The notes under the pieces: generated by a model
What the model was told of the DNA's origin: nothing
Seen by the model: the letters and a program-made list of their open reading frames with translations, nothing else
Database searches by the model: none
Shown here: positions 32,139 to 56,161 of the stretch, piece after piece
Position numbering within the stretch: the first letter of the stretch is position 1
Layout of the letters: the number at the start of each line of letters is the position of its first letter
Made by a program: the position numbers and the translations under genes
NCBI RefSeq assembly: GCF_000733935.1
Contig: NZ_JPON01000001.1
Coordinates: 2,154,501 to 2,218,500 of the forward strand
DNA from: Methylomarinum vadi
Lineage (GTDB): Bacteria > Pseudomonadota > Gammaproteobacteria > Methylococcales > Methylomonadaceae
Direction of reading: 5' to 3'
Length of the DNA stretch: 64,000 nucleotides

Positions 32139-32292
32139 AAACCCTCCATCCCTGCTCTCTCGGTGAAAACGCCCGATTAAAACCAACAATTTTTAATCGA
32201 CGATATATTTCTTCGCGGTGCGCCTATCCAATTGGGTGATTCTAGCCACCGCCTCGTAACTGCCGTGGCGATCGTAAAGAAAACGGCAATAG

Positions 32293-33874
32293 CCCGGATA
32301 TTTCATCAGTCCCTTGAAACCCTATCGAAACCCTCGTTTGTTTTAAAACATGCGATCGTAAGGAGAAATTGAGCGGTCAAAAAGGGAATTAAGCATTGAT
32401 TTCCGTTTTTCAGGCGCAACTTCCCCTTACCCCATTGTTTATCAGCGTGCCGGGCACAGCACTCTGTTTGTACTAATCAGGGCACAGGCGCTGACAAACG
32501 GATTTAAACAGGGATTGAAACGGATACTGACTGCTGAACAGCAGTCGAATACGACGGGTGTTACGAATGATGACGGCACCGATTTTAAACAATTTCAGGC
32601 GAATGGTGGCGCAAGTGGCTGTCGCTAGTTCGGTGTTGTTGAGGGCGATTCGGCGAATCGCCTGGATCAGGGTATAGGCCAAGGTGGATAACAGCAAACG
32701 AAACTGATTCGGCCACCACAGGCTGCAACTGGTGCGGTCGGCAAACAGATCCAATTGTTGCTCTTTAATCCGGTTTTCCATGTCGCCTCGCGCACAGTAA
32801 ACGGTTTCATAGAGTGTTTGTGCATCGCCGTCCAGATTGGTTACGACATAGCGGGGATTACTCCCTTGGCTCATGTGTTCGGCCTTAAGAATGACACGGC
32901 GTCGGCGTTTCCAGGTGCCGGCTTTATAGTGGAAATCGGTAAAGAGACGCTGTTTCTGCTGTTCGCTTTGGAACTGTTGCCGGGCTTGTTCAATCCAGGG
33001 TTGGCTTAAGCGCGTTAAGCGTTTATTTTTGGCCAACCCGACAATATAGTGAACGCGATGCCGCTCGCACCAACTCAGCATCTTATGGCGACAAAAACCG
33101 CCATCGCCGCGAAACGTGATGTCAACGTCCGGCCAAGCCTGACGCAAGCGCCTGACCAGCAACGCCAGAATCGCCCAGCTGTGCTTGGCGCCATCAATAT
33201 TGCTGGGACGTAGATAACTGACCAAGCAATGATGGCCGCAAAAGACATACAACGGCAGGAAACAATAGTGCCGATAGTAGCCATGAAAAAAACGTCCGTC
33301 CTGTTCGCCATGAACCGGATCGTCGGTGGCGTCGAAGTCCAGGACCAACGATTTCGGCGGTGTCTCATACGAAGCGATAAACTGCGCCACCAGTTCCTCA
33401 TGAACGCGCCACATCAAGGCGCGATCCGCCTGCTGCTCAAACCGGCACAAGGTGGATCGGCTGCCCAATGTCTGATCCTTTTCCACCGCCGTCTGAAAGG
33501 CGATATCATTTCTGAGCGTGTCATGATCATTCAAATCCTCATACCCACACGCCAAGCCATAAACCCGTTGACGGAGCAGGTTGATCACAGAGTGTTGCAC
33601 GCGGTCAGGGGCTCTGGCGTCAGGAATCTGCGCCGCTATCCGTTCGGTTAATCCTAATTGCTGGTCAATCGCTCTTAACAACAGCACACCGCCATCACTG
33701 GTGATCGCTCCACCACTGAATTGGGCCTCGATTTTACGGCGTTTTAAGGGAGGAAATTCTATTTGAGCTGGAGTACAATTTGTCATGGGCAAGTTGTTGG
33801 TTAAATTCAATCTAAGTAACTGAATTTTATCAAATATCAACAAACTTGCCCGCCTCTATCATGAAATATTCGGG
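32293..33874 (-). mobile_element. IS1380-family insertion sequence (1582 bp)
   Basis: The ends are imperfect inverted repeats beginning CCCGGATATTTCAT (32293-32306) and, on the other strand, CCCGAATATTTCAT (33874-33861), 13 of 14 identical. A 4-bp target duplication ATAG flanks it at 32289-32292 and 33875-33878. IS1380 elements are known for 4-bp duplications, ends starting with CC and a single DDE transposase, all seen here. It is intact with a full transposase, so it may still move. It interrupts the sigma-54 activator gene. Confidence 0.93.
32473..33786 (-). CDS. IS1380 family transposase
   Basis: 437 residues from the ATG at 33786, chosen as the first ATG giving the family start before PAQIEFPPLKRRKIEAQFSG; a longer frame would extend 19 residues towards the element end. 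DDE residues are in VLDFDATDDPVHG, FRGDGGFCR and ARGDMENRIKEQQLDLF. The transposase cuts and joins the element ends. There is no frameshift or stop in the frame, so the enzyme appears complete. Confidence 0.93.
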   Translation of the reverse strand: MTNCTPAQIEFPPLKRRKIEAQFSGGAITSDGGVLLLRAIDQQLGLTERIAAQIPDARAPDRVQHSVINLLRQRVYGLACGYEDLNDHDTLRNDIAFQTAVEKDQTLGSRSTLCRFEQQADRALMWRVHEELVAQFIASYETPPKSLVLDFDATDDPVHGEQDGRFFHGYYRHYCFLPLYVFCGHHCLVSYLRPSNIDGAKHSWAILALLVRRLRQAWPDVDITFRGDGGFCRHKMLSWCERHRVHYIVGLAKNKRLTRLSQPWIEQARQQFQSEQQKQRLFTDFHYKAGTWKRRRRVILKAEHMSQGSNPRYVVTNLDGDAQTLYETVYCARGDMENRIKEQQLDLFADRTSCSLWWPNQFRLLLSTLAYTLIQAIRRIALNNTELATATCATIRLKLFKIGAVIIRNTRRIRLLFSSQYPFQSLFKSVCQRLCPD

Positions 33875-35427
33875 ATAGTCCTTGAGCAATTGTTGAGCGC
33901 TGATTTCGGCACCACTTTCCCGCAAAGCAAACAGAATTTGCCGGTCTTCCGGCTTATGCCGCTCAGCGACTTGGTAACTGCCGGTCAGACAAATACGGCG
34001 GATACATTGCTCCAATTCCCTGACATTACCGGGCCAGGGATAGTCCCGCGGTACGGTTTCATGAATTTTCCTTTCGATGCGTGCCACCAAATCGCCATTG
34101 GGATTGGCGATGACCCGCCACAACAAACCGGCGATCAGCTGACTCAATTCCGCCGAATTTTCCCGCAACCGTTGCTTCAAGCCGGGCACAACAATGACGT
34201 CGGAACACAGGCGGTAATACAAATCGTCCCTAAATTGGCCGTTTTTGCGTAATTTTTCGATATCGCGATTGGTCGCGCTAATCACGCGGCCGGAAAAACG
34301 TAATTTTTCATGACTGCCGACAGGACTGAAAACCCGGTCCTGAATGACATTCAGCAATTTGACCTGGGTCGGAATATCGATATCGCCGATTTCGTCGATG
34401 AACACCGCACCATTGGCGCTACATCGTGCAAACAAGCCTTGATGGTTTTCGATCGCGCCGGTAAAAGCGCCTTTCTTGTGCCCGAACAATTCCGATTCCA
34501 ACAGCGACGCCGGAAATTGCGCCAGATTGATCGCCTGAAAAGAACGGGTGAAACTTTCACGGAACCGCCGCCGAGTCAAATCGAAAGGAATGAAACCGGA
34601 GCAGCCGATCGCATGCGCGACCAGACTCTTGCCGCTGCCGGTCGAGCCCAACAGCAATGTGGAAAATTCCTCCATGCGCCCCAACAGGTAATCCAAATAC
34701 CAGCGCGGATTGAAGGTAAAAATATTGTTCCATAACCGCATACGCAGTTCGATGATGGAGGGACAGTCGCCCGATAGCGATGAGTTGATGAAATAAAAAC
34801 CGCGATGCAATTGATAAAACAGGCCGATGTACTTGATCAATTCCTCGTCCTGATAGCCGGCCCGACGAAAACAATCGACCAATTCCACCGCAAAAGGCAA
34901 TTCCAAGGGCTCGTCGCCGAATTGTCGCTGAGCGTCGATGAATTGATTGAACGCCTGCTGGAAGCGGTGAAATTGATAAAACAACCAGGCATATTCGATG
35001 CTGTTACGGTCGCGCCGCTGAAAATCGTCAATCCGAAAATCGGCTAGCGGGCCCAATTGTTGCAATTGCGCTTCCAGCACGAGCTGAATTTGTTCGACAC
35101 GCTGAAAAAGATCCATGCTGCCTGGGGGGATACGTAATACACGGCAATCGGCCCGCTCGCGCTCCTTGCTGAAAGGGTTGACGAAAGCCAGCTCGGCAAT
35201 TTGGCTAAAAAAGTCGCGTTGTTCGGGCAGTATGTTTTTCATCAGATACCATCGTTAAAAGTTACATTTTCCCCGCTACATGTGTCGGCGCAGGAGAAGA
35301 ATCGCCACCTAAAGCCGCACATAAATCATACATTTTTTGCTTATCATGTCTGCATTTTCTGCCTATTTATTTTTACCCACTATGGCCAAATAAGAACATC
35401 TCATTGATTTTATTAAGATATTAAACT

Positions 35428-35443
35428 TGGCCCGGCTCTTGCC
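35428..35443 (+). promoter_or_regulatory. Sigma-54 (-24/-12) promoter of the PspA-like operon
   Basis: TGGCCCGGCTCTTGCC has GG and GC elements separated by exactly 10 bp, matching the sigma-54 consensus TGGCAC-N5-TTGC. It lies 41 bp before the ATG at 35484, and the divergent gene encodes a sigma-54 activator. The 240-bp region between the two genes would hold the enhancer sites. Confidence 0.85.
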
Positions 35444-35483
35444 ATAGCGAAAATGAATAAACACTTAACAAAGGAGCATCGCT

Positions 35484-36137
35484 ATGAACAGTTTCAAACG
35501 CTTATTCGTCAGCATCAAAAGCCAAATCGACCATGTCGCCGACGAATTTGAAAATCACGAAGCCCTGGCGGAAACCGCGATCGGCGATTTACAGGAAATC
35601 GCCCGCAAAACCCGTCTGCATTTGCATCGTGTCGACAAGATGACCGAACAATATCAAAAACAATTACAGAAACAACAGGAACAGGCCCGCTTATGGTCGG
35701 AACGGGCGCTCAAGATCAAGCAACAAGACGAGCAAAAAGCCTTGCAATGCGTCAGACGCTTGCGTCAGGCCCAACGACAAAGCCACGCCCTGGAACAACA
35801 AATTCAGGAAGCCAAGACTCAGGCAGCCAAAATCCGCGACGACCTGAGCGCCATCCAGGAACAGCTGTTGGTCTTGAAAAACAAAAAGGAAATTTTAGCG
35901 GCCCGGCAACATCGCACCAGCGTCCACGATGTTTTATTGGACAGACAAGCCAACCCGCTGCGCGACGCGCAGTCGATTTTCGACCGCTGGGAAGGCTCGG
36001 TGGTCAGCTCGGAATTCGATCTTCCGGAAACAATCGATAGCGACATTTTCGCCGAGCAATTCGAGCAGGAAGAAGATGAACTGGCATTGAAGATGATGCT
36101 GGATGAATTGGAAAAAACCGATTCAGCTACAAAATAA
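35484..36137 (+). CDS. PspA/IM30 family coiled-coil protein
   Basis: 217 residues, preceded by AAAGGAGC. It begins with an amphipathic helix (MNSFKRLFVSIKSQIDHVAD), then a long coiled coil (about 40-150) rich in Q, E, K and R, and an acidic C-terminus (EQEEDELALKMMLDELEK). This layout matches PspA, an ESCRT-III-like protein that binds stressed membranes. It differs from E. coli PspA in the lack of pspBC neighbours. It is first in a two-gene operon behind a sigma-54 promoter. The family assignment is by architecture and modest similarity. Confidence 0.75.
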   Translation: MNSFKRLFVSIKSQIDHVADEFENHEALAETAIGDLQEIARKTRLHLHRVDKMTEQYQKQLQKQQEQARLWSERALKIKQQDEQKALQCVRRLRQAQRQSHALEQQIQEAKTQAAKIRDDLSAIQEQLLVLKNKKEILAARQHRTSVHDVLLDRQANPLRDAQSIFDRWEGSVVSSEFDLPETIDSDIFAEQFEQEEDELALKMMLDELEKTDSATK

Positions 36138-36155
36138 CAACAACGGGAGACAGCC

Positions 36156-37466
36156 ATGTATGCCAACGAATTCGACCTCCAAACAGGCCATGTGACGGAG
36201 GAAAACACCACGAACGACAGCTTGACGAAAAAAATTACCGCCTATTTACGCTGGGTCGGCTCGATCTTGATCATCGTCTCGGCGATCAGCTTCATGCTGC
36301 AAGGCCATGACGAGATTTTACCCGCCTATCGTTATTGGATCGGCCTGGGCCTAACTTTATTACTGTGCGGCGGCGGCCTGGTCTGCGCTTATCTATTCCA
36401 CGAAACCAAGGGCGCCCGCATCTTCTTCGGCCTTGGCGCCGCCTTCCTGCCGGTGCAGGTATCGCAAGTGAGCGCGATGATTTATGCCTATTGGCACGGA
36501 CAGGCTGCACTGCAACCGCAATACCGCTGGCTGCAGTTCATGGATGTCAGCCCTGCAATCATCGCGCTGGATTTAGTGACCACCGGCGCGTTATTGCTCT
36601 TGGTCAGCTACGCCAGTTACGCGATGTTGGCGCGCAAACACTTGAAGACGTTATTGTGGGCCTTTCTGGTCGGCAATCTCTTGTTGCTGCTGCCATTACG
36701 CGATGCGACCGCCATAGCTATCGTCATTGCCGGCCTGTTTGTGTTTCTGAGACAAACCGAGCAACGCTTGCATAACGACAGCAGCATGCGATTGCCGGAA
36801 GGCATGGCGGCCAGAGCGCTGATTACCCTGCCGCTTTGGATCATCGTCGGCCGCAGCCTGTTACACCCGACTTCCTCCTTATTGGCGATCGTGCTATCGG
36901 CCGTTGTCGTCGCCTACGGCATTTTCGACATCAAGCGTTATACGCAATCGACGTTGCTCGTTTATAGCGGCCAATGGCTAGGGACCTGTGCCGCCGCCGC
37001 TATCTGGCTCATGGTTCTGGACCAATTCGCCGTCGACGCCGGCTCCCAATTGAGCGCGTTGTTGCCGATCGCGGCAATCCTGTTCGCCCTATCCGGCAAG
37101 GTCGAATTTCACGCCCGGCTTTACCGCTCGGCCAGCTCGACACTGGCGGTCATATTGAGTTACGCGGCCTTACTGGACCAGCAAACGCTGGCGCCGATAT
37201 TCGCGATCGCCACAGGCATTCTGTTAACCGTCGCCGGCATTCGCCACCGCGAAAAAATCCCGTTTTTCGCTGGCAACCTGTGTGTCGTCGGCGGTTTGAT
37301 GTTTTATTGGGAATATGCGGTCGATATCTACGCCACCTCGCCCTGGATCAGCTCGATAGCCTTGGGACTGTCGGTCATTCTGCTGGCATCTTATATGGAA
37401 AACAAAGAGAAACAAATCATTGCCAAATCGCGTTATTATTTCAAGGAATTGAAACATTGGGATTGA
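36156..37466 (+). CDS. Polytopic membrane protein, partner of the PspA-like protein
   Basis: 436 residues with a soluble start of about 30 residues, then about 11-12 predicted membrane helices from residue 32 to 420 and a short basic cytoplasmic tail. I recognise no transporter signature. It starts 18 bp after the PspA-like gene and so shares its sigma-54 promoter. A direct role as the membrane partner or effector in envelope stress is inferred from the operon only. Confidence 0.7.
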   Translation: MYANEFDLQTGHVTEENTTNDSLTKKITAYLRWVGSILIIVSAISFMLQGHDEILPAYRYWIGLGLTLLLCGGGLVCAYLFHETKGARIFFGLGAAFLPVQVSQVSAMIYAYWHGQAALQPQYRWLQFMDVSPAIIALDLVTTGALLLLVSYASYAMLARKHLKTLLWAFLVGNLLLLLPLRDATAIAIVIAGLFVFLRQTEQRLHNDSSMRLPEGMAARALITLPLWIIVGRSLLHPTSSLLAIVLSAVVVAYGIFDIKRYTQSTLLVYSGQWLGTCAAAAIWLMVLDQFAVDAGSQLSALLPIAAILFALSGKVEFHARLYRSASSTLAVILSYAALLDQQTLAPIFAIATGILLTVAGIRHREKIPFFAGNLCVVGGLMFYWEYAVDIYATSPWISSIALGLSVILLASYMENKEKQIIAKSRYYFKELKHWD

Positions 37467-54724: not shown

Positions 54725-56161
54725 CTAAAGAATTCTTTTTCTCTGGCTGGAAGGGGGAATCGACATCGATTCCCGATATTTGGCAATCGTGCGCCGCGCG
54801 ACATTAATGCCCTTTTCTTTCAATAGCTCGGCTATTTTACTGTCACTCAGCGGTTTCGCCGGTTTTTCACTACTTATTAACTCCTTAATAAAGGCTCGGA
54901 TCGCAGTCGCCGAACATTCGCCTCCGGCATCGGTCGAGACATGACTGGAGAAAAAGTATTTGAATTCAATTATACCATTGGGCGTATGCATGTATTTCTG
55001 CGTGGTCACCCTGGAAATGGTCGATTCGTGCAGCTCCAGCTCCTCGGCAATGTCGCGCAACACCATCGGTTTCATCGCGATCGCGCCATGTTCAAAAAAA
55101 TCGGTTTGTTTTTCAACAATACTCTTGGCCACCCGGAGCAGGGTGTCGTTTCGGCTATGCAGGCTTTTGATGAACCAGCGCGCTTCCTGCAAATGCTCCT
55201 TCATGCTGACATTGTCCTTGCTGTTATCGGCGCGTTTGATCATTCCGGAATAAAGGGGATTGATACGCAATTTCGGCGCGATATCGGGATTCAGGCTTAC
55301 CACCCATTGGCCTTTGACTTTGCTGACAAAGACATCGGGGACGACGTATTGCGAATCGAAATTTTGCAAGTAAGCGCCCGGCTTCGGATCCATGGTGCGA
55401 ATCAGCGCGATGATTTGCTTTAATTGATTTTCCGTCACGTCCAGACGCCGCATCAGTTTACTGAGTTCATGCGACGCCAATAAATCCAGGTGATAGCCGA
55501 CCAATTCCAGTGCTTCTTTTTTAAAGGGGGTATCGTCGGGCAGCTGTTGTAATTGCAATCGCAAACAGTCTCCCAAATCCAACGCGGCGACGCCGACCGG
55601 ATCGAAATTCTGCACCCGGTGCAACACCGCTTCCACTTCCTCGATATCCAAATCCTCCAGTTGCTCCTGTAACCCTTGAAAAATCTCTTGCAGATCCGTC
55701 CCCAAATAACCGTCTTCGTTGATCGAATCGATGATGGCGATGGCGATGGCATGATCCCGTTCGGAAATCGGGCTCATTTCCAGTTGCCACAATAAATGAT
55801 CCTGTAGCGTTTCCGCTTTGCTACGGAAAGATTCGAACTCGACCGCTTCGCCGGGTTCGCTGCCGGCCGGCAGAGAGGCTTCGTAAACGTCTTCCCAACT
55901 GCTGTCCACGGGCAATTCATCGGGGATTTCGGACTGCGAACCTTCGCTGCTAATTTGGTCGCTGATATCGGTTTTACGCTCCTGGCGCTCCTGATCCAGC
56001 TGTTCTTCTTCCTCGACCTCGAGCATCATATTCGATTCCAGGGCCTGCTGAATTTCCTGTTGCAAATCCAGCGTCGACAATTGCAGCAATTTGATCGCCT
56101 GCTGCAATTGCGGCGTCATGGTCAGATTTTGGCCGATTCGAAGTTGTAATGACTGTTTCAT
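54725..56161 (-). CDS. rpoN: RNA polymerase sigma-54 factor RpoN
   Basis: 478 residues from the ATG at 56161, which yields the conserved M-K-x-S-L-Q-L-R-x-G-Q-x-L-x-M-T-P start; the frame upstream is in lptB. The Q-rich activator-contact region (1-50), an acidic linker, the core-binding domain (about 130-300) and the HTH plus RpoN box ARRTIAKYRE (about 457-466) are all present. It needs an ATP-driven activator; the sigma-54 promoter at 35428-35443 and the split activator nearby belong to its regulon. Confidence 0.97.
   Translation of the reverse strand: MKQSLQLRIGQNLTMTPQLQQAIKLLQLSTLDLQQEIQQALESNMMLEVEEEEQLDQERQERKTDISDQISSEGSQSEIPDELPVDSSWEDVYEASLPAGSEPGEAVEFESFRSKAETLQDHLLWQLEMSPISERDHAIAIAIIDSINEDGYLGTDLQEIFQGLQEQLEDLDIEEVEAVLHRVQNFDPVGVAALDLGDCLRLQLQQLPDDTPFKKEALELVGYHLDLLASHELSKLMRRLDVTENQLKQIIALIRTMDPKPGAYLQNFDSQYVVPDVFVSKVKGQWVVSLNPDIAPKLRINPLYSGMIKRADNSKDNVSMKEHLQEARWFIKSLHSRNDTLLRVAKSIVEKQTDFFEHGAIAMKPMVLRDIAEELELHESTISRVTTQKYMHTPNGIIEFKYFFSSHVSTDAGGECSATAIRAFIKELISSEKPAKPLSDSKIAELLKEKGINVARRTIAKYRESMSIPPSSQRKRIL

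Follow-up and report, generated by a model that had tools for sequence, protein, structure and literature searches.

A pspA-type gene paired with a family-less membrane protein in Methylomarinum vadi: a possible alternative Psp-type module

Results

The locus and its control region

We analysed a stretch of 64,000 nucleotides of the Methylomarinum vadi genome (contig NZ_JPON01000001.1, positions 2,154,501 to 2,218,500; hereafter the window), in which a PspA-type gene, a gene for a polytopic membrane protein and a gene for a sigma-54 activator lie side by side in what may be an alternative Psp-type envelope-stress module. The genome consists of one contig of 4,335,162 bases. The pspA-like gene (35484..36137, plus strand, 217 aa) belongs to the PspA/IM30 family of the ESCRT-III superfamily according to Pfam, profile alignment and a tree, and is followed after only 18 bases, on the same strand, by the gene for a 436-aa membrane protein that we call MEM (36156..37466), which pairing counts and a structure model mark as the polytopic partner of its PspA clade. 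Divergent from this pair, starting at 35242, runs the gene for a sigma-54 activator (a bacterial enhancer-binding protein, bEBP; 33830..35242, minus strand), a truncated open reading frame (ORF) of 470 aa with a Pfam Sigma54_activat match of 1.3e-43. The gap between pspA and MEM is too small to hold a pspB, for which, as for pspG, no dedicated search was made.

A ribosome binding site, aaaggag, can be read from the sequence at 35470..35476 (plus strand), and a -24/-12 sigma-54 promoter of the form GG-N10-GC, TGGCCCGGCTCTTGCC, lies at 35428..35443 on the plus strand, 56 bases upstream of pspA. It is among the four sites that score at least 12 on both strands of the 64-kb window, and has a p of about 0.005 in 200 shuffles of its 330-base region, so that scoring and shuffles confirm the consensus promoter named in a preliminary description of this DNA. 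The position is conserved: of 30 loci arranged like that of the window, 29 have their best-scoring site 48-69 bases upstream of pspA. Three of these 29 (L049, L050 and L027) miss the final C of GC, and in the thirtieth (L063) a weaker GG-N10-GC aligns with the sites of the others. In none of the 13 pairs without an activator, two of which are poorly testable, is the best site at this position; in this comparison the pspA start of L084 is misplaced and the upstream sequence of L089 is only 104 bases long.

Upstream of the promoter, the motif ATGTAY/RTACAT, often as TGTACA, occurs in 16 of 19 intergenic regions compared with 6.2 in dinucleotide shuffles, none of 500 of which reaches 16; the motif was picked on these same 19 regions, with L042 and L056-L058 left out. 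It recurs in four of six regions not used for picking (expected 1.2, p 0.01 in single-base shuffles). The window's control region has one such half-site, ATACAT at 35328..35333 (plus strand), a candidate site for binding of the activator. No operator palindrome passed the thresholds of a search for dyads. The same window also holds rpoN, with a Sigma54_DBD match (E 1.9e-69) at 54734-55204 on the minus strand, about 17-19 kb from the trio.

Pairing and distribution

The existence of a three-gene module is well supported by comparison of genome sequences. Sixteen of 61 genomes (the window's own included) carry MEM, at 17 loci, all of which have pspA adjacent and a match to the activator. The activator is irregular at three of them: in G004 an ORF of 277 aa lies between, in G023 it is split by a stop, and at one locus of G036 it is cut by a contig end. 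The other 45 genomes, some of them incomplete, have no MEM match. Similar counts come from 25 loci with organism names, which were scanned for with one peptide pattern taken from Methylococcales rows and thus favour near relatives: pspA is present at 24, the other being cut by a contig end, and the activator at 22. Two of the three loci that miss it end with their contig, and the third, L046, has about 2.1 kb upstream with no activator there. Twenty-two of the 25 bear the name of Methylococcales or of genera of this order, and three are named only as 'bacterium' or 'Gammaproteobacteria'. The two sets overlap (for example, L053 is G028 and L049 is G007), and one genome supplies both L058 and L059, so the counts are not independent. 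The gene-neighbourhood survey thus finds in other genomes the linkage of the three genes whose absence would have refuted the preliminary description.

The pairing extends further than the trio. Among 370 gammaproteobacterial genomes that are at least 90% complete, 16 (the window's included) carry MEM, and the same 16 carry a PspA of this clade (E <= 2e-57; the next match is at 2e-21), with the two genes adjacent in all 15 other carriers. The PspA profile used in this search was built with nine of the 16 carriers, which leaves seven free of circularity, and one PspA-clade match, G195, has a TAG inside. A phylum sample of 397 genomes yields the window's own genome and one clear carrier, G763; a match in G660 (E 5.4e-4, with a stop inside) was set aside.

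The N-terminal domain of the activator was found in only five of the 370 genomes, namely the window's own, two carriers in which it lies downstream of the pair, G146, which has no pair, and G261, where the match is weak and partial. A different divergent regulator lies upstream of six of the remaining 13 pairs and of the L147 pair from the phylum sample. These regulators are 243-247 aa long, with that of L147 cut at 213; two of them were scanned and match HTH_26, and the rest were judged by their similar N-termini. In the genomes compared, the pair persists and its regulator varies.

The PspA-type protein

The window's PspA matches Pfam PspA_IM30 with E 7.6e-12 and 45.7 bits, above the cut-off of 33.9, which several orthologues do not reach in the genome search. 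A 22-row profile of the window protein and its orthologues aligns nearly end to end with solved Vipp1/PspA chains, the best being the Vipp1 chain 8qfv (E 8.7e-14, profile positions 4-211 of 220). The PspA/IM30-like coiled coil that had been proposed is therefore upheld at the level of sequence by both the family match and the profile alignment, which tie it to PspA and Vipp1. Rows for TAL effectors in the same search (down to 1.9e-5) match along one short stretch and were dismissed as an effect of composition. The hydrophobic moment of the protein, computed with no shuffle control, peaks at the N-terminus, which is where helix alpha0 of PspA lies.

In a tree of 41 rows, the PspAs of 13 trios and 15 pairs group together with 99/96 support. 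E. coli PspA lies outside this group, and so do the YjfJ-type proteins, among them the genome's own second PspA. A separate clade is thus supported for the rows tested. The tree carries a long-branch warning, contains no Vipp1 and takes in 10 of 15 other PspA-like candidates (L126-L128, L130 and L145 were left out); its 29th clade row, OTH_L129, duplicates the protein TRIO_L061.

Three further observations concern PspA-like genes. The second PspA of the genome (G000:C1:1956877-1957557) falls in the YjfJ clade, and its operon partners are YjfI-like and flotillin-like by look only. Relatives carry a further PspA-like type, with open frames of 179-213 aa, outside the tree (G032:C1:2489507, G006:C46:144459, G031:C1:3660645, G037:C278:275 and G004:C289:16860). 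At L042:3131-3862 (plus strand), pspA is broken into fragments of 61 and 166 aa and the adjacent MEM is open; the break may be an error or mark a pseudogene.

The membrane protein

MEM was earlier described as a membrane protein of about 12 helices that could not be assigned. It is indeed polytopic and without a family, and the model (mean pLDDT 79.6) has 15 helices of at least 15 residues, slightly above that count; a hydropathy count gave 22 fragments and was not used. A profile search found no relative in the PDB, and Foldseek was empty at E <= 0.001. A second structural comparison gave middling Z scores, the best (9.6, rmsd 3.6, 110 aligned) being to a designed protein.

The nearest lead is Pfam PF09925 (DUF2157). 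The window's MEM has no hit to it, while the best relative, the distant MEM of L081, reaches E 0.0002 and 21.5 bits, below the cut-off of 32.4. Comparison of MEM with DUF2157 by hhalign gives E 5.5e-4 over 339 columns with a probability of 30%, versus E 0.74 for a major facilitator superfamily (MFS) control. Passages of Ravi et al. 2024 (PMC11237479) use DUF2157 as the label for the membrane part of LiaF. A remote link of MEM to a known Psp partner of LiaF type is therefore possible at the level of profiles, although MEM has roughly three times the length of the 146-position model of this LiaF/LiaI-type membrane domain, to which its similarity is weak.

The activator and its loop

The activator begins with a domain (34673..35242, minus strand) that has no assigned family and is helical in a model of an orthologue, and continues with an AAA+ domain that has Walker motifs and the GAFTGA sigma-54 contact motif (34454..34471, minus strand). 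Complete orthologues are 486-510 aa long and end in a Fis-like helix-turn-helix (HTH). The earlier view that the protein goes beyond the bare AAA+ layout of PspF stands, given this extra N-terminal domain of about 190 aa. Its description as TPR-like finds no support in family searches: none of 16 N-terminal domains matches a TPR family (E up to 0.5), and against Pfam they hit only two chance families, with one member each at E about 0.09. In the model of the L041 orthologue, residues 1-170 are all helical (block pLDDT 71-93). The AAA+ part of the model is of low confidence, and it is from this part that a structure search matched PspF-like AAA+ domains.

A second difference from PspF lies within the AAA+ domain, where a loop (34529..34606, minus strand; about residues 213-238) is expanded at the position of the W56 loop. 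Two overlapping alignments, of 14 and 20 rows, give 45 aa between Walker A and ELFGH in every row. Twelve of the loop columns have no counterpart in E. coli PspF or in three other activators encoded by this genome; the comparison missed L021 and L023, two of the four own activators. The activators of L083, L086 and L150 have the same insertion. Passages of PMC3791423 give residues 50-62 of PspF, the W56 loop, as the primary docking site of PspA, and it is at this position that the 12 extra residues fall. Judging from these alignments, the expanded loop is the most telling clue that PspA and the activator may touch.

Discussion

An alternative Psp-type module

We suggest that the locus is an alternative Psp-type envelope-stress module in which MEM takes the place of PspB and PspC, a reading to which we give a probability of roughly 55%. 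It builds on features of the sequences, that is, PspA family membership, the pairing of pspA with MEM, the conserved promoter, the layout of the activator and the expansion of its loop, and it borrows the function of the module from what is known of the PspA family. By this analogy, a dedicated activator, with a helical sensor or control domain, an AAA+ domain and a Fis-like HTH, would bind upstream of pspA and, together with RpoN, drive transcription of pspA and MEM in response to a presumed stress signal. Like other PspA/Vipp1 proteins, PspA would polymerise, here on an inner membrane under stress, and contribute to membrane repair, and MEM, in contact with PspA, might be its membrane anchor or sensor, replacing PspB/PspC. 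Free PspA would restrain the activator through the enlarged W56-type loop or the N-terminal domain, by analogy with PspA and PspF, and the activator would be freed once MEM or membrane damage recruits PspA.

It would be tempting to go further and to see here a PspA lineage of its own, tied to an obligate polytopic partner that replaces PspB/PspC. Evolution would have exchanged the regulator, which in Methylococcales is a sigma-54 activator that gained a sensor domain and a rebuilt docking loop, and elsewhere is of the Cro/C1 type. The partner would recruit PspA and report the state of the membrane without a known Psp sensor. This wider scenario is tentative, and we hold it to be somewhat doubtful.

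How PspA is recruited, and how it signals to transcription, without PspB/PspC is an open question for many bacteria. A two-gene module of PspA and partner, with exchangeable regulators and a visibly rebuilt docking loop, makes the question testable with few parts, and gives a context to MEM, a conserved membrane protein without a family. Searches of open-access papers, PMC11237479, PMC9239133, PMC3791423, PMC6003685 and PMC4012209 among them, and the portions covered of two large Psp surveys gave no description of such a module.

Points against and rival explanations

Several results weigh against the proposed module. MEM matches no Pfam or NCBIfam family at cut-off, and its fold and function are without assignment. 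Of the 15 distant carriers, 13 yielded no activator, and in two distant pairs that have it nearby, L083 and L086, the best promoter site lies at about -54 with an imperfect -12 box. The YLW patch docks PspA on PspF; it is absent from the activator, where R, F and F are aligned in the window's protein. Moreover, the loop need not be for PspA, because the activator of G146 (L150:4826-6316, minus strand) has it expanded in a genome without pspA-MEM matches.

Some of these points favour a rival explanation, in which the activator is not controlled by PspA, its sensor domain responds to an unrelated signal, and the pair is a plain effector operon. An activator of this type without the pair, other regulators beside distant pairs and the missing YLW patch speak for it. 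However, wherever an activator occurs in the window's gene order, it is divergent from pspA, which is the pspF-pspA layout, and the change in its loop falls exactly at the docking site of PspA. We therefore regard a plain effector operon as unlikely, although it is the rival that survives best.

It could also be hypothesized that the pair is a Vipp1-like housekeeping or lipid-handling module, in which the PspA clade and MEM shape membranes, such as the intracytoplasmic membranes of methanotrophs, or move or modify lipids, with the sigma-54 control being metabolic rather than a stress response. In support of this idea, the best PDB matches of the window's PspA are Vipp1 chains, and lipid-type genes adjoin some of the distant pairs: AMP-binding/acyltransferase and MFS genes lie beside the pair's regulator at L081:6963-10375 (plus strand; Pfam), similar genes occur at L082 and L085 by look or alignment, and a fatty-acid hydroxylase lies between MEM and the activator at L083. 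A link to lipid repair is possible from these neighbours. However, they are few (four of 15, with no background comparison), the lack of a MEM match in 45 of 61 genomes, incomplete ones among them, implies that the pair is not needed for the common lifestyle, and the dedicated activator and conserved -24/-12 promoter point to induction. A housekeeping role seems somewhat less likely still.

A canonical psp locus of the usual kind, its partners decayed or missed, would share the divergent bEBP, the -24/-12 promoter and the first place of pspA in the operon, but it is ruled out, as nearly as such a reading can be, by the model scores (19.2 bits against a cut-off of 242.95 for PspA, TIGR02977, and 141.2 against 443.55 for PspF, TIGR02974), by the lack of PspC in the genome and by the separate PspA clade. 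Anti-phage defence was considered and rejected, as PADLOC gave nothing for MEM and, for PspA, weak matches to long coiled-coil proteins, the best at 0.0019.

Comparison with known systems

With the canonical Psp system of Enterobacteriaceae (pspF/pspABC), the locus shares a divergent sigma-54 activator, a -24/-12 promoter, a coiled-coil protein of the PspA family and a membrane partner in the operon. It differs in having one large polytopic partner, a PspA of another clade and no PspC in the genome, where a search gave 0 matches and the E. coli control was positive, in agreement with the earlier claim that pspC is absent. Its activator differs from PspF in the extra N-terminal domain, in a W56-type loop longer by 12 residues and in the lack of the YLW patch. 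The absence of PspC, a PspA that groups with neither E. coli PspA nor YjfJ and the activator's N-terminal domain agree with the impression that the set follows the logic of Psp with different parts. The counts do not show a strict replacement of PspC by the trio: PspC occurs in one of 16 MEM genomes (G060) and in five of the 45 without MEM, and most genomes have neither.

Operons of PspA/YjfJ with a CesT/Tir-like YjfI and flotillin, as presented in sections of Ravi et al. 2024 (PMC11237479), combine a protein of the PspA family with membrane partners and no PspBC. They resemble the window's locus in this respect, but YjfJ belongs to another clade, and the YjfJ-type locus of this genome stands separately at C1:1956877.

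RtcR and CARF-type sigma-54 activators provide the best-scoring models for the window's activator (NF038308, 188 bits against a cut-off of 650; PADLOC RtcR_PspF2, 6.6e-59). An RtcR/CARF identity was rejected, as these matches are confined to the AAA+ part. The N-terminal domain has no CARF match and is all-helical in the orthologue model, whereas CARF is a Rossmann-type fold.

An IS insertion in the activator

In this strain, the HTH of the activator is interrupted by an insertion of the IS1380 family, which accounts for the truncation noted in the preliminary description. The element occupies 32293..33874, with bounds set from comparison of its copies and from sequence, and ATAG at both 32289-32292 and 33875-33878 is read as the target duplication. 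Its transposase gene lies at 32473..33843 on the minus strand (NCBIfam transpos_IS1380, 5.8e-128). Residues 1-456 of the activator ORF, down to 33875, are native and the last 14 aa are encoded by the element; beyond it, translation of the left flank reveals a remnant of the C-terminal HTH at 32193..32291 (minus strand). As the DNA-binding domain is lost, induction of pspA and MEM in this strain is probably weak, absent or dependent on an activator not anchored to DNA.

The activator also looks labile elsewhere, judging from its split in L061 and from the failure to find it in L046 and in the distant carriers counted above. At L061:2561-4027 (minus strand), it is present as two adjacent ORFs, one for the N-terminal domain (189 aa) and one for the AAA+ domain and HTH (298 aa), with a stop between them. 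The IS1380-family element itself has probably been active recently, because the genome holds 16 near-full copies, this one included, at 96-100% identity.

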